The notes under the pieces were generated by a model. The model did not search any database and was not told the DNA's origin. It was given only the letters and a program-made list of their open reading frames with translations. Shown here piece by piece: positions 55,912-61,189 of a stretch of DNA of 64,000 nucleotides (positions within the stretch are counted from its first letter, which is position 1; every line of letters begins with the position of its first letter). A program made the position numbers and the translations under genes. The stretch is taken from assembly GCA_002696035.1 (NCBI GenBank), contig NZQV01000026.1, forward strand, positions 1-64,000. Reading direction: 5' to 3'. This DNA is from Balneola sp. Its GTDB lineage: Bacteria > Bacteroidota > Rhodothermia > Balneolales > Balneolaceae.

Positions 55912-56310
55912 ATGCCAAGCATTTTTACCAAGATCATCAACCGGGAAATTCCAAGTTTCACCATTGCCGAAGACGACAAGCATTATGCGTTTCTCGACAT
56001 CAATCCCGCGGCTCGTGGACACACTCTTTGCATCCCCAAAAAAGAAGTGGATTATTTGTTCGACCTGCCTGCAGATGAACTGGCCAGGCTCACTAAATTT
56101 TCCCAGAAAGTAGCGGCCGGCATGGATAAGGTTTTGAATCCGATCCGAACCGGGGTGATCGTTGAGGGCATGGAAGTGCCACACGCACATATTCATTTGA
56201 TCCCCATTTATGAAGCCACTCAGGATTTCAGCCTAGGTAAAAAAATTAATATGGATGAAGGGGAGATGTCTGAATTAGCCGAGAACATCAGTAAGGAAAT
56301 TAAGCTATGA
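55912..56310 (+). CDS. HIT family protein (histidine triad)
   Basis: The 132-residue protein has the early AFLDINPAARGHTLCIPKK and the catalytic triad HAHIHLIPI. HIT proteins hydrolyse nucleoside phosphoramidates or dinucleotides; this one is Hint-like in length. The next gene's ATG overlaps its stop by 4 bases. Confidence 0.94.
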   Translation: MPSIFTKIINREIPSFTIAEDDKHYAFLDINPAARGHTLCIPKKEVDYLFDLPADELARLTKFSQKVAAGMDKVLNPIRTGVIVEGMEVPHAHIHLIPIYEATQDFSLGKKINMDEGEMSELAENISKEIKL

Positions 56311-56738
56311 AGATCCTGATCGTAAACGGACCAAATTTGAATTTACTGGGTAAACGAAATCCCGGCGTATATGGAACCGGAAGCTTAAAAGACCTGGAAG
56401 ATTTTCTGCGGGGTGAATTTCCGGAACATGAGTTCTCTTTTTACCAAAGTAATGTGGAAGGCGAGCTCATCAACAAAGTGCAGGAAGCGATGGAAAATGG
56501 CACCGAAGGGCTCGTTATCAATCCCGGCGGATATTCGCATACCTCGGTTGCCCTCCGCGACGGACTGGAACCTTTGGAAATCCCCAAAGTTGAAGTTCAC
56601 ATTTCCAACATTCACGGACGAGAAGATTTCCGTGAGAAATCCATCACCGGCGGTGTTATGAACGGCATCATCACCGGTTTTGGGAAATATAGTTATGTAC
56701 TTGGAATCCGTGCCATCGAACAATTAGCCAACCACTAA
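56307..56738 (+). CDS. aroQ: 3-Dehydroquinate dehydratase, type II
   Basis: The 143-residue enzyme shows GPNLNLLGKRNPGVYG with its active Tyr, INPGGYSHTSVALRD, and EVHISNIHGREDFR. It makes 3-dehydroshikimate in the shikimate pathway whose last enzyme, AroC, is at 24103. It overlaps the HIT gene by 4 bases and lies 2 bases before the flippase. Confidence 0.96.
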   Translation: MKILIVNGPNLNLLGKRNPGVYGTGSLKDLEDFLRGEFPEHEFSFYQSNVEGELINKVQEAMENGTEGLVINPGGYSHTSVALRDGLEPLEIPKVEVHISNIHGREDFREKSITGGVMNGIITGFGKYSYVLGIRAIEQLANH

Positions 56739-56740
56739 GT

Positions 56741-58207
56741 TTGACCAAACTCAAAGAACTCTTTTCGGACACCCTGGTTTATGGCGTCAGTAGCGTGCTT
56801 TCACGTTTTATTGGGTATCTGCTGGTTCCCTTGCATACCGGGGTTTTCAGTGAAAGTCAGTATGGCGTGATCACCCTGATCTTTTCTGCCATCGCACTTT
56901 TTAATGTTCTTTTTACGATGGGGATGGAATCGGCCTACATCCGGTACGCCAAAGACCGTGAAAAAGCCGGCTCCTTCTTCAAAACGCTTCAGCTATTTCT
57001 GCTTGGTTCCTCAGGCATCCTGGTTGTTCTGATCTGGCTTGCAGAACCAGCCATAGCCCCTATAATTGGACTCGAGACAGGAGATCCAATTCTATGGATC
57101 ATGCTCGGTATTCTTTTCTTTGATACCATCGCTGTGGTTCCCTTTGCTGAACTTCGGCTGGTGCGGAAATCCATTTCGTTTGCCGTCATCAAAACCGGAA
57201 ACGTGCTCATCAATCTTGGGTTGAATTTCTACCTGATCCTGGGATTAAATTATGGCATAGAAGCCGTTTTCATCAGTAACGTTGTGGCTTCTCTTTTAAC
57301 AGCCATAGCCACCTGGGCGGTTACCATTTCACTTTTTACCGGCAGCTGGAATACCGCCTTCCTCAAAAAAGCCCTCATGTTTGGGCTCCCATTTGTGCCC
57401 GCAGGCTTTGGTCACGTCATCAACGAACTCATCGACCGGTTTTTCCTCAAATCCATGGATCCTGAAACCGTTCAACAGCTTTACGGCCCTGATTATACGC
57501 CCGACGACATCGTGGGAATCTATGGCGCCTGTTATAAGCTGGCTGTATTTATGCTACTGATCGTGCAGATGTTCCGCATGGCCTGGCAGCCGTTTTTTAT
57601 GCGACAGTCGGAGGAGGAATCAGCGCCCGTAACTTTTTCACAGACCTTCAGTTTTTTCAATATCGCTGCCGCAGGAGTCTTCTTATCCGTTGCCCTTTTT
57701 ACCGAGCAGATCGTTTCCATAAAAGTGCCCATTCTGGATTTTTACCTGGTCGACGAAAAGTTCTGGGAAGGGCTTGGCATCGTTCCCGTTCTGCTGATGG
57801 CGTACTGGTTCCAAGGCTGGTATATCAACTTTTCAGCCGGCATTTTCATCAGCGAAAGCACAAAAAGACTTCCACAAATCACCCTCATCGGTGCGGGGAT
57901 TACGATCGTAGCTAACCTCGTGCTCATACCTTATTTTGGAATGATGGGCTCGGCCTTCGCTACTTTGGCAAGCTACGGATTTATGGCCATGCTGATCTAC
58001 TACTACTCCACCAACGCCTTCCAAGTGCCTTACAAACTCGTCTCTGGTTTTGGGGTGATGCTGATCTCTGCCGGAGCATATTACCTGAAGCCATATTTCT
58101 TAGAAATTGGATATAACGAATGGATCGTTTCCGGCTTGTTATTTTTGAGCGGGATGTCAGCTGTGGTTGGGCTTACTTATTATTCCGTATTGAGAATCAG
58201 AGACTAG
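56741..58207 (+). CDS. Polysaccharide flippase (MATE/MurJ-like superfamily)
   Basis: The 488-residue protein has about 12-14 membrane helices and the family start SDTLVYGVSSVLSRFIGYLLVPL. Only a TTG at 56741 gives this N-terminus; the first in-frame ATG (about 60 residues later) would cut into the first helices, so TTG is the start. It probably flips lipid-linked oligosaccharide for surface polysaccharide. It follows aroQ by 2 bases, so it is translated from the same transcript. Confidence 0.9.
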   Translation: MTKLKELFSDTLVYGVSSVLSRFIGYLLVPLHTGVFSESQYGVITLIFSAIALFNVLFTMGMESAYIRYAKDREKAGSFFKTLQLFLLGSSGILVVLIWLAEPAIAPIIGLETGDPILWIMLGILFFDTIAVVPFAELRLVRKSISFAVIKTGNVLINLGLNFYLILGLNYGIEAVFISNVVASLLTAIATWAVTISLFTGSWNTAFLKKALMFGLPFVPAGFGHVINELIDRFFLKSMDPETVQQLYGPDYTPDDIVGIYGACYKLAVFMLLIVQMFRMAWQPFFMRQSEEESAPVTFSQTFSFFNIAAAGVFLSVALFTEQIVSIKVPILDFYLVDEKFWEGLGIVPVLLMAYWFQGWYINFSAGIFISESTKRLPQITLIGAGITIVANLVLIPYFGMMGSAFATLASYGFMAMLIYYYSTNAFQVPYKLVSGFGVMLISAGAYYLKPYFLEIGYNEWIVSGLLFLSGMSAVVGLTYYSVLRIRD

Positions 58208-58456
58208 GTTTTACTTAGAATGGGTCAATAGTGAAAATTTCTTAGTACCGGAATGTTCTGACAAGCATTCCCAACGGGACAAGATTAATAACTCGGGTAT
58301 ATCAAAAATAGAATAGGCCGCTCATTTTCACCCAAAAAGAAATAAATTGATTCTAAGCTAAATTTTTGAGTTAATTCATTGCTGTGCTTGAAGTTAAAAG
58401 AGTGCAAAACCACAGTTTCAATACTATTTTAAAATTTACTATGCAGGGATACTATT

Positions 58457-59272
58457 ATGAACACTCAGGAACGTGTCGGAATTTTTGTTGATGCCGTAAA
58501 TGTAACGATGAACGGTGGGTACGGACTACGATATGATACGTTGCGTATGTTTGGCTGTCGCGGCGGCGGCATTGCCTCCCGGCTGAATGTGTATCTCTGC
58601 TATGATGAGCAGCGCCTGAACGAAGATTCCGAATACCGCCATAAAACGCAGCGGTTTTGTGAAGTGCTTCGTGATTTTGAATACAAGGTGATCGAAAAAC
58701 CCATTCAAACCTACACCAATCATGAAACCGGCGAAAAGATCTCAAAATCTACCATTGATATGGATATGGCCGTGGATCTGCTCACCCAAGCCAAAAAACT
58801 GGATAAAATCGTGCTTCTTTCAAGCAGCGGAAGTTATGTAAGTGTCGTAAACGCTCTTCAAAACAAAGGATGTCGTGTGGAATTGGTGGGTTTTGATAAC
58901 GTTTCCTCATCCCTAAAAAAAGCTGTAGACTCTTCCGTTTCCGGGTACCTGATTCCCGGACTATTGCCTATTGACTCACCCTACAACTGGGGTGAAAACG
59001 GATCTCGGGTGCGTGGTGTTTGTTATGATTTCAGCCAGGATGAAGGCTACGGTTTTCTGCGTTTTCTCACCCGAAAAGAAGATTGCCTGTGGATCACCGA
59101 TTCGCGTGATGAAAAATCACCCTATAAAACGGTATTTGCCCACATTTCACAGTTCGAAGAAGATTTTGATGCGAACTATCTGCCCAGTCGCGAACTCATT
59201 TTTGAATTCGACATCACTGAAAATGACAAAGGTTTGATCGCCGAGAATATTGTTTTGGTGAGCGCCCCTTAA
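58457..59272 (+). CDS. NYN-domain protein fused to a cold-shock-like domain
   Basis: The 271-residue protein begins with a NYN/LabA-like domain (about 1-165; GIFVDAVNV with Asp 12, STIDMDMAVDLL with Asp 101, 103 and 107). The usual SGDSDF motif reads SSSGSY (about 122-127), so two metal-ligand Asp are Ser. The C-terminal 85 residues resemble a cold-shock/OB domain (GVCYDFSQDEGYGFLRF, VFAHISQF, GLIAENIVLV). An RNA-binding protein with a weak or lost nuclease is likely (inference). It is a single gene, and its 3' end overlaps the CDF gene by 4 bases. Confidence 0.87.
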   Translation: MNTQERVGIFVDAVNVTMNGGYGLRYDTLRMFGCRGGGIASRLNVYLCYDEQRLNEDSEYRHKTQRFCEVLRDFEYKVIEKPIQTYTNHETGEKISKSTIDMDMAVDLLTQAKKLDKIVLLSSSGSYVSVVNALQNKGCRVELVGFDNVSSSLKKAVDSSVSGYLIPGLLPIDSPYNWGENGSRVRGVCYDFSQDEGYGFLRFLTRKEDCLWITDSRDEKSPYKTVFAHISQFEEDFDANYLPSRELIFEFDITENDKGLIAENIVLVSAP

Positions 59273-59931
59273 CAGCAATCATCAGCACAGGCTATCTTCC
59301 TTTTCGCTGCTTTTTCAAAAGCTTCACGTCCCTCTTTGAATGCATAATAAGCAATCCCCAAACTTCCCAAAGCATCTACATACGGAATGGTAAAAAGTTC
59401 GTACAGCAGGCTTGATCCCAATAAAATAAAGGAGAGGTAAAAACAGGTTTTGGTACACTTGGCATCGGAGATGATGGGGCCGGAATTCAACGCTTTGCCG
59501 ATCTTCATCTTATAATAATACAAAGCATACATCGTCAGAATAGAAAGTGTGGAAATGATAATTCCGACAAATGTTGTTTGTGGTTCTGCCCCAGTGTAAA
59601 TGGCAAGACTTGCTCCGACGATCAATCCTGTCACTAAAATATAAAAAGCCGTTCCGGTGATCCAGAGTGCCGTAATTTCAAATTCATCGACCCCATTGTA
59701 TTCCTGTCGCCTCATCCGCAAGATCATGTGAGCAATACCCAATCCGGAGATCACTTCCACAAAGCTATCCACCCCAAACCCAAAGAGCGCCAGGGTTTCA
59801 TCATGGGCTCCAAACCAGGTTGCAACCGCTCCCTCGATCACATTATAACCGATAGTGATGAAGCTGAGCCAAAGAGCCCATTTATAGAGCTTTTCCTTGG
59901 GGAAATCTGCGAGCATTGTTTTGGTTGACAT
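59269..59931 (-). CDS. Cation transporter, CDF-like
   Basis: The 220-residue membrane protein has about six helices, an early FGFGVDSFVEVISG of the kind seen in cation diffusion facilitators, a second metal-type site (PIISDAKCTKTCF), and a Cys-rich end (CADDCC). Cation diffusion facilitators export zinc, cobalt or other divalent ions. It converges with the NYN gene (4-base overlap). The HMA-AraC regulator is two genes further right, so copper, cadmium or zinc is plausible. Confidence 0.82.
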   Translation of the reverse strand: MSTKTMLADFPKEKLYKWALWLSFITIGYNVIEGAVATWFGAHDETLALFGFGVDSFVEVISGLGIAHMILRMRRQEYNGVDEFEITALWITGTAFYILVTGLIVGASLAIYTGAEPQTTFVGIIISTLSILTMYALYYYKMKIGKALNSGPIISDAKCTKTCFYLSFILLGSSLLYELFTIPYVDALGSLGIAYYAFKEGREAFEKAAKRKIACADDCC

Positions 59932-60616: not shown

Positions 60617-61189
60617 TTAAACCTTATCCAGGGATTTCCGGCTTGGATTCTGGAGTTTTTGGTAGGCGCTCATACTCATTCCTGTTAATTCTTTGAACTG
60701 TCGGGAGAGGTGTTGCAAATTCTTATAGCCCAGCTGATACGCTATTTCACTAAAACTGAGCGTGCCATATCCCACCAATTCCTTCGCTTTCTCGATCTTC
60801 AGGCGAATGAAATATTTTTCGATAGTAAGCTCTTCCTTCCTTGAAAAAACCCGGGAAATAGTGGCGTAACTTTTAGCTAGGTTCTTGGCCAGATAATCAG
60901 AGAGAGAGGTCTCATCGGTTTCCAGATCCCCAGAATCGATCCATTGTATCAGGCTTGTCTTCACCTTTTCCACCAATACCGATTCCTCATCTTTTATCAG
61001 TCCAAAATTGAAGCGTTCGAGTTCTTTTTCAATTTCGTGCATGGAGGGTTTATCACCGGTCCGTGTGACCTCCGCTTTTCCAAGCTGAATGTGGACAACT
61101 TCAAGTCCCAAAGCCTCAAGTGCGGTTTCGATCACCATCTCGCAGCGATCGCAAACCATGTTTTTTATATGCAGCGTCATTTTTTCCAT
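60617..61189 (-). CDS. AraC-family regulator with N-terminal HMA-like metal domain
   Basis: The 190-residue protein fuses an HMA-like fold (about 1-68) with the Cys pair MVCDRC (13, 16) to an AraC/XylS helix-turn-helix (about 90-180; IEKYFIRLKIEKAKELVG, SEIAYQLGYKNLQHLSRQFKELTG). HMA domains bind copper(I), zinc or cadmium through the CxxC, so this looks like a metal-responsive activator. Its genes are probably the CDF transporter and ICMT-like genes downstream (inference). Confidence 0.9.
   Translation of the reverse strand: MEKMTLHIKNMVCDRCEMVIETALEALGLEVVHIQLGKAEVTRTGDKPSMHEIEKELERFNFGLIKDEESVLVEKVKTSLIQWIDSGDLETDETSLSDYLAKNLAKSYATISRVFSRKEELTIEKYFIRLKIEKAKELVGYGTLSFSEIAYQLGYKNLQHLSRQFKELTGMSMSAYQKLQNPSRKSLDKV

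Follow-up and report, generated by a model that had tools for sequence, protein, structure and literature searches.

Does a protein with the fold of an NYN nuclease still cut RNA when the acidic residues of its active-site loop are gone, or does it act as a regulator that binds RNA without cutting it? This question is raised by a gene of Balneola sp. in the stretch of DNA analysed here (64,000 nucleotides, positions 1 to 64,000 of contig NZQV01000026.1; hereafter the window). The original prediction, made from the sequence alone, described its product as an NYN nuclease-like domain fused to a cold-shock domain and offered two readings: an RNA-binding regulator derived from a nuclease, or a nuclease with a changed metal site.

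Domain architecture of the window protein

58457–59272, + strand: NYN/cold-shock-like fusion gene (ATG start, open reading frame of 271 amino acids)
58472–58936, + strand: NYN domain, residues 6–160 (Pfam PF01936, E=3.2e-20, and matches of the structure model)
58964–59269, + strand: C-terminal region, residues 170–271, cold-shock-like (Y190, F192, GYGF at 197–200, W212, VFAH at 226–229)

The NYN match of the window protein lies above the curated Pfam cut-off (73.6 bits compared to 24.2), and PF01936 is matched by all 20 members of the family set that we compiled (A2). The predicted model of the full protein (30 sequences; mean pLDDT 62.8, mostly 60–90 in the NYN part) was the sole query of our fold searches against solved structures. 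It matches VPA0982 (2qip; Z 19.1, rmsd 2.9 over 154) and the NYN domain of MARF1 (5yaa; Z 18.4, rmsd 2.1 over 141; and 6fdl, Z 17.8), and the best match outside the NYN proteins reaches Z 9.5. According to this model, residues 1–172 would share the NYN fold with VPA0982, MARF1/Limkain b1 and the CRISPR-associated NYN protein of B. fragilis. The nuclease-like domain of the original prediction is borne out by profile and model alike.

Pfam detected no OST-HTH domain in the protein, NCBIfam TIGR00288 was rejected as its family (E=0.14), and its PHROGs matches were weak. The nearest named relative is from Gracilimonas amylolytica (88%), and the named relatives are Balneolaceae and allied records. 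Despite a match to the NYN/LabA-like model of PADLOC (E=3.9e-11), a defence-system reading was rejected, as there is no defence gene among the named neighbours. A viral origin was rejected as well, with no relative in viral contigs (where all 71 pattern matches were rejected) or in phage records. In a profile search of the window genome, the window protein was the only PF01936 protein. For PF01936, we thus rejected that it serves as a decoy subunit beside a second catalytic NYN protein of the same genome; a partner nuclease could still belong to another PIN or NYN family (e.g. YacP/Rae1).

The C-terminal part, which follows the NYN domain, is probably a divergent cold-shock/OB domain. Pfam CSD (PF00313) matches residues 224–267 with E=4.5e-4 and 20.5 bits, below the cut-off of 27, and matches at E≤0.1 are present in 18 of the 20 members of A2, with 4.5e-4 as the best value and L042 and L043 as the exceptions. 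A genome-wide PF00313 search of the window genome (E≤0.001) returned three other genes and not the window gene. When the profile of the C-terminal part was compared to four cold-shock proteins (three from the window genome and one from genome G116), we obtained a probability of 80.9 and E=1.2e-5, with a greater spacing between GYGF and VFAH than in the cold-shock proteins. The same profile had no significant match among solved structures (best E=0.092, a Y-box protein), and in both the full-length and the separate models pLDDT is below 50 in most of the region, which is too poor to show a fold. Y190, Y198, F200, W212, F227 and H229 are found in all 50 distinct proteins of the window's order, Balneolales, and F192 is found in 49 of them; we take these aromatic and His positions to be the RNP1/RNP2-like positions of cold-shock domains. 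The cold-shock fusion of the original prediction thus stands in a weaker form: a CSD match is present and the aromatic residues are kept, but the match does not reach the Pfam cut-off.

The active site

58490–58492, + strand: codon of D12, first Asp of the triad, kept (D in 50 of 50 distinct proteins)
58757–58759, + strand: codon of D101, second Asp of the triad, kept in the window protein (D in 40, E in 7, A in 2 and N in 1 of 50)
58820–58837, + strand: loop SSSGSY, residues 122–127, with S124 and S126 in place of the Asp pair of [ST]GDxDF

In PMC11346440, residues D13, D118 and D143 of the CRISPR-associated NYN protein are equated with D358, D426 and D452 of MARF1 and with D14, D92 and D115 of VPA0982, and the essential triad includes only the first loop Asp, not the second. 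The three equivalent Asp are reported as conserved in NYN ribonucleases (PMC11346440, PMC6294520), cleavage failed with the D13A variant of the CRISPR-associated protein (PMC11346440), and most activity was lost in MARF1 with D426A/D427A (PMC6294520).

In our alignment to 2qip, the triad D14/D92/D115 of VPA0982 corresponds to D12/D101/S124 of the window protein, a mapping for which we infer that chain index and residue number differ by 3. The loop of VPA0982 that aligns to SSSGSY carries two Asp. The triad of active NYN endoribonucleases is incomplete in the window protein, with one of three positions lost, and the second loop Asp is S126. Compared to VPA0982, MARF1 and the B. fragilis protein, the equivalents of D12 and D101 are kept, whereas the third triad Asp (D115/D452/D143) and the second loop Asp are replaced by Ser; the window protein also differs from these three in its C-terminal cold-shock-like domain. 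Besides D12, the acidic residues D101, D103 and D107 are present in IDMDMAVD (residues 100–107). The alignment agrees with the earlier claim that the loop lacks both Asp, with the first Asp and the DMD region still in place.

The loop change within Balneolales

Homologues were found in 41 of the 57 relatives searched. Among 244 genomes of the class, 70 contain a homologue: 63 from the window's order (two of these homologues are end fragments), three from a family labelled f7, and four that match the NYN part only. In total, 71 loci of the order were fetched, which cover part of the class genomes with a homologue; after dropping one truncated locus (L071), we obtained 50 distinct proteins. Records titled Rhodothermia, Rhodothermaceae or Bacteroidetes were placed in the order on 61–77% identity.

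None of the 50 proteins carries the D-x-D pair in the loop. Residues 12/101/124 occur in the combinations DDN (21), DDS (14), DEQ (6), DDE (2), DDD (2), DAD (2), DDH (1), DNN (1) and DED (1). Residue 124 is N in 22, S in 14, Q in 6, D in 5, E in 2 and H in 1 of the proteins, and its variability lies at the 86th percentile; Asp never occurs at residue 126 (S 36, K 6, G 4, N 2, A 2). A loop of the form [ST][SN][SN]GSY is kept in much of one family of the order. The survey of SSSGSY against SGDSDF that the original prediction had proposed thus places the owners of the Asp pair outside the order. A strain-specific mutation was ruled out by the spread of the loop change across all 50 distinct proteins.

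These data bear on the possibility that the protein still works as a nuclease but with an altered metal site, in which D12, D101, D103 and D107 hold one metal and the enzyme acts as a slow or differently regulated RNase. Such an enzyme would fit the invariant D12 and D107 as well as the Asp or Glu found at residue 101 in 47, at residue 103 in 48 and at residue 124 in seven of the 50 proteins. However, no constant new ligand is present, as residue 124 can be N, S, Q, D, E or H and residue 126 S, K, G, N or A. Furthermore, E101 is combined with Q124 in six proteins and A101 occurs in two, and therefore the second and the third triad positions both move. We thus consider this alternative unlikely. 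The changed metal site itself is real and order-wide and appears to be derived, and of the two readings offered at the outset the regulator fits better, because residue 124 is varied with no single new ligand.

The reading that we prefer, with a probability of about 0.6, is that of a nuclease-derived pseudonuclease that lost its loop in the order and would act as a non-cutting RNA-binding regulator. Several observations speak against it: D12 and D107 in 50 of 50 proteins together with D101 in 40 are compatible with a modified metal site, and Asp is found at residue 124 in five proteins, with the whole triad in two (L037 and L069). Residual nuclease activity is possible, above all in the latter two. 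The conservation of the loop within lineages, the weak assignment of the cold-shock domain and the dispensability of the gene also count against this reading.

The mean column entropy of the 50 proteins is 1.06 in the NYN part compared to 0.68 in the C-terminal part. Within the NYN part, the most conserved stretch lies off the old active-site loop and includes, for example, the invariant columns NGG, R25–D27, R30, R35 and R42. Strongest conservation outside the loop would also suit an NYN domain that serves as a protein-interaction or dimerisation module, joined to a C-terminal domain that binds RNA, DNA or protein; cold-shock domains are known to bind DNA too. Nothing points to a particular partner, however, and we regard such a module as quite improbable.

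Relatives outside the order and direction of change

The f7 proteins (L042, L043 and L074) are 39–40% identical to the window protein over nearly the full length, and their three distinct sequences all combine TGDGDF with D12 and D101. In a tblastn search of plasmid records, 124 records matched the f7 protein and eight matched the window protein. Five of these eight were inspected (L139–L143, four Pseudomonas genes and one Burkholderia gene; a small outside sample); they are 30–39% identical over most or all of the length, and each has an [ST]xDGDF loop. The NYN/OST-HTH-type paralogues of the order have [ST]SDSDF at six loci and SADSDQ at the seventh (L106). Most simply, the canonical catalytic loop would be ancestral and its loss derived in the window's order, because the relatives outside the order all carry [ST]xDGDF.

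Most of the cold-shock aromatics are absent from these relatives. At positions 190, 192, 198, 200, 212, 227 and 229, the f7 proteins have S, Y, I, S, Y, F and H; almost none of the positions are kept in the Pseudomonas genes, and the Burkholderia gene, which has GYGF, keeps F192, Y198 and F200. Pfam CSD found no match at E≤1 in f7 or in the five plasmid relatives. In the sequences compared, the canonical nuclease loop and the full cold-shock signature occur apart.

On a quick family tree of full-length proteins, which has many open forks and was estimated with the motif columns removed and rooted on f7 by choice, residue 124 needs at least 11 changes. Changes between Asp and non-Asp on this tree number at least 5 at residue 124, 4 at residue 101 and 1 at residue 126, the last at the split from f7. 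Residues 190, 198, 200 and 212 change once each, also at the split from f7, and residues 227 and 229 do not change. On a paralogue tree, whose very long branches restrict its use to this one statement, the order's proteins all lie on one side of a branch.

In f8, another family of the class, the NYN-type loop reads SGNGHF or SGNGHL (L076, L079), with Asn in place of the first loop Asp, possibly an independent loss. In three of the four Pseudomonas loci (L139, L141 and L143), the relative lies between a gene of the MvaT/MvaU family and a patatin-like phospholipase gene, and in the Pseudomonas locus L142 csrA comes next after the relative with the canonical loop. The start of the Burkholderia arboris gene (L140:2913-3720) is in another frame than the rest, reflecting either a disrupted gene or a sequencing error. 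PF00313 proteins were found in none of the three f7 genomes (G069, G088, G173), compared to three such proteins in the window genome.

Selection, gene neighbourhood and gene loss

55912–58207, + strand: neighbouring genes for HIT, DHquinase II (aroQ) and a polysaccharide flippase-like protein (Pfam)

When nine genomes of the genus are compared, no amino-acid difference occurs in the six codons of the loop, and 33.8% of the codon comparisons differ synonymously. Between the window protein and the other eight genomes, dN is 0.066–0.132 and dS is saturated, which leaves omega unusable (a value in 4 of 36 pairs). The reading frame is open throughout, with no internal stops, in the full-length matches listed. 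These comparisons indicate that the gene is under purifying selection. Loops of the SSSGSY type are not simply decaying, because they are conserved within lineages; judged from the alignment, the loop is held in a lineage-specific form rather than being free.

In the 31 loci of the order that include the window, the flippase gene lies upstream on the same strand in every case, with aroQ in 30 and HIT in 28. In 27 of the 30 named loci, the flippase gene and the NYN gene are separated by at most 160 bases; in the window the distance is 249 bases. This neighbourhood was not found in f7 (13 kb inspected).

Some genomes of the window's family lack the gene, which is therefore dispensable. All eight family genomes without the gene that we examined keep HIT, aroQ and the flippase gene, and no remnant better than E=1.4 was found in the stretch examined at these loci; clean loss of the gene is thus possible. 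Loss of the gene beside retained neighbours, together with loss of the active site, could point to a decaying relic without function. The full-length open frames in the listed matches, the low dN compared to saturated dS and the invariant columns across the order argue against this; on the selection data a relic is unlikely, and overall we give this reading hardly any weight.

Proposed model and comparison to known systems

For the pseudonuclease that we favour, the ancestor would have been an NYN endoribonuclease with a C-terminal OB-like domain. The loop that gives the third metal-binding Asp would have been rewritten in the order, resulting in SSSGSY in the window protein. Cleavage of RNA by the NYN domain would be inefficient or gone, and the domain would be left as a structural scaffold in contact with RNA, while single-stranded RNA would be bound by the cold-shock-like domain, in which the RNP-like aromatics are kept. 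Both domains together may form a regulator of the stability, structure or translation of its presumed mRNA targets.

A more detailed scenario, which we put forward tentatively and at somewhat less than even odds, is a stepwise stripping of the active site that led to an order-wide post-transcriptional regulator, a bacterial counterpart of Ssd1, with sister lineages taking the opposite course. Asp126 would have been lost first and once, followed by Asp124 several times and by Asp101 in some lineages, an order of losses that we infer from the quick family tree rooted on f7. The cold-shock-like domain would have become the fixed RNA-binding part, whereas the sister lineages would have kept the nuclease and lost the cold-shock aromatics.

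Fungal Ssd1 is described in PMC8097288 and PMC8934651 as a pseudonuclease of the RNase II family that underwent at least four losses of the active site with conserved cold-shock domains, and as a non-enzymatic protein that represses translation of the mRNAs it binds. The parallel is an analogy in behaviour, namely repeated loss of catalytic Asp next to conserved cold-shock domains, where RNA binding by the window protein is a prediction. The folds differ and are unrelated, with an RNase II fold in Ssd1 and an NYN fold in the window protein.

Like the LK-nuclease (DUF88)/OST-HTH proteins, the window protein has an NYN/DUF88-type domain and a C-terminal part that binds nucleic acids, which in the window protein is predicted. 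Unlike them, it is without OST-HTH and has lost the active-site loop, whereas the order's own NYN/OST-HTH paralogues keep [ST]SDSDF. The founding paper on NYN domains is reportedly that of Anantharaman and Aravind in 2006. A PIN-like fold without catalytic acidic residues is shared with SMG5, which is eukaryotic and is not known to have a cold-shock domain. The PIN domain of SMG5 is termed catalytically inactive in PMC6294520, and some bacterial LK-nuclease (DUF88)/OST-HTH proteins have fusions to OB folds of the S1/cold-shock type according to PMC2848206. Fusions of DUF88/NYN to OB folds and inactive PIN domains are thus already known (PMC2848206, PMC6294520). In the literature that we searched, which covered few subscription papers, we found no description of a bacterial NYN-OB family that has lost the NYN active site throughout an order.

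To our knowledge, little is known about RNA biology in the order Balneolales. If the regulator reading is true, it marks a candidate RNA regulator in this order. Furthermore, one orthologous family would then include nucleases with an intact [ST]xDGDF loop, the triad-keeping L037 and L069 as intermediates, and proteins with two changed triad positions, and pairs of close homologues would offer a way to test the transition from nuclease to RNA-binding regulator. The label 'NYN domain-containing protein' would then be no proof of RNase activity.

Upstream region and downstream genes

58350–58456, + strand: region upstream of the gene, containing blocks conserved within the genus (alignment of nine genomes)

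The upstream blocks common to the nine genomes include TTGATTCT, GTTAATT and a second GTTAA, and the rest of the 249-base gap is variable. Rfam had no match near the gene up to E=1, and a pattern scan of the upstream region gave no telling excess over chance. As far as the alignment goes, the blocks might represent the gene's own promoter or an autoregulatory leader.

On the other side of the gene, a small protein is encoded at 60617–61189 on the − strand, with an AraC-type HTH (HTH_18, E=4.2e-16) behind an HMA match (E=8.7e-5) just below the cut-off. A gene of the cation-efflux family (59269–59931) lies near it, and the HTH_18/HMA protein is possibly a metal-sensing regulator.
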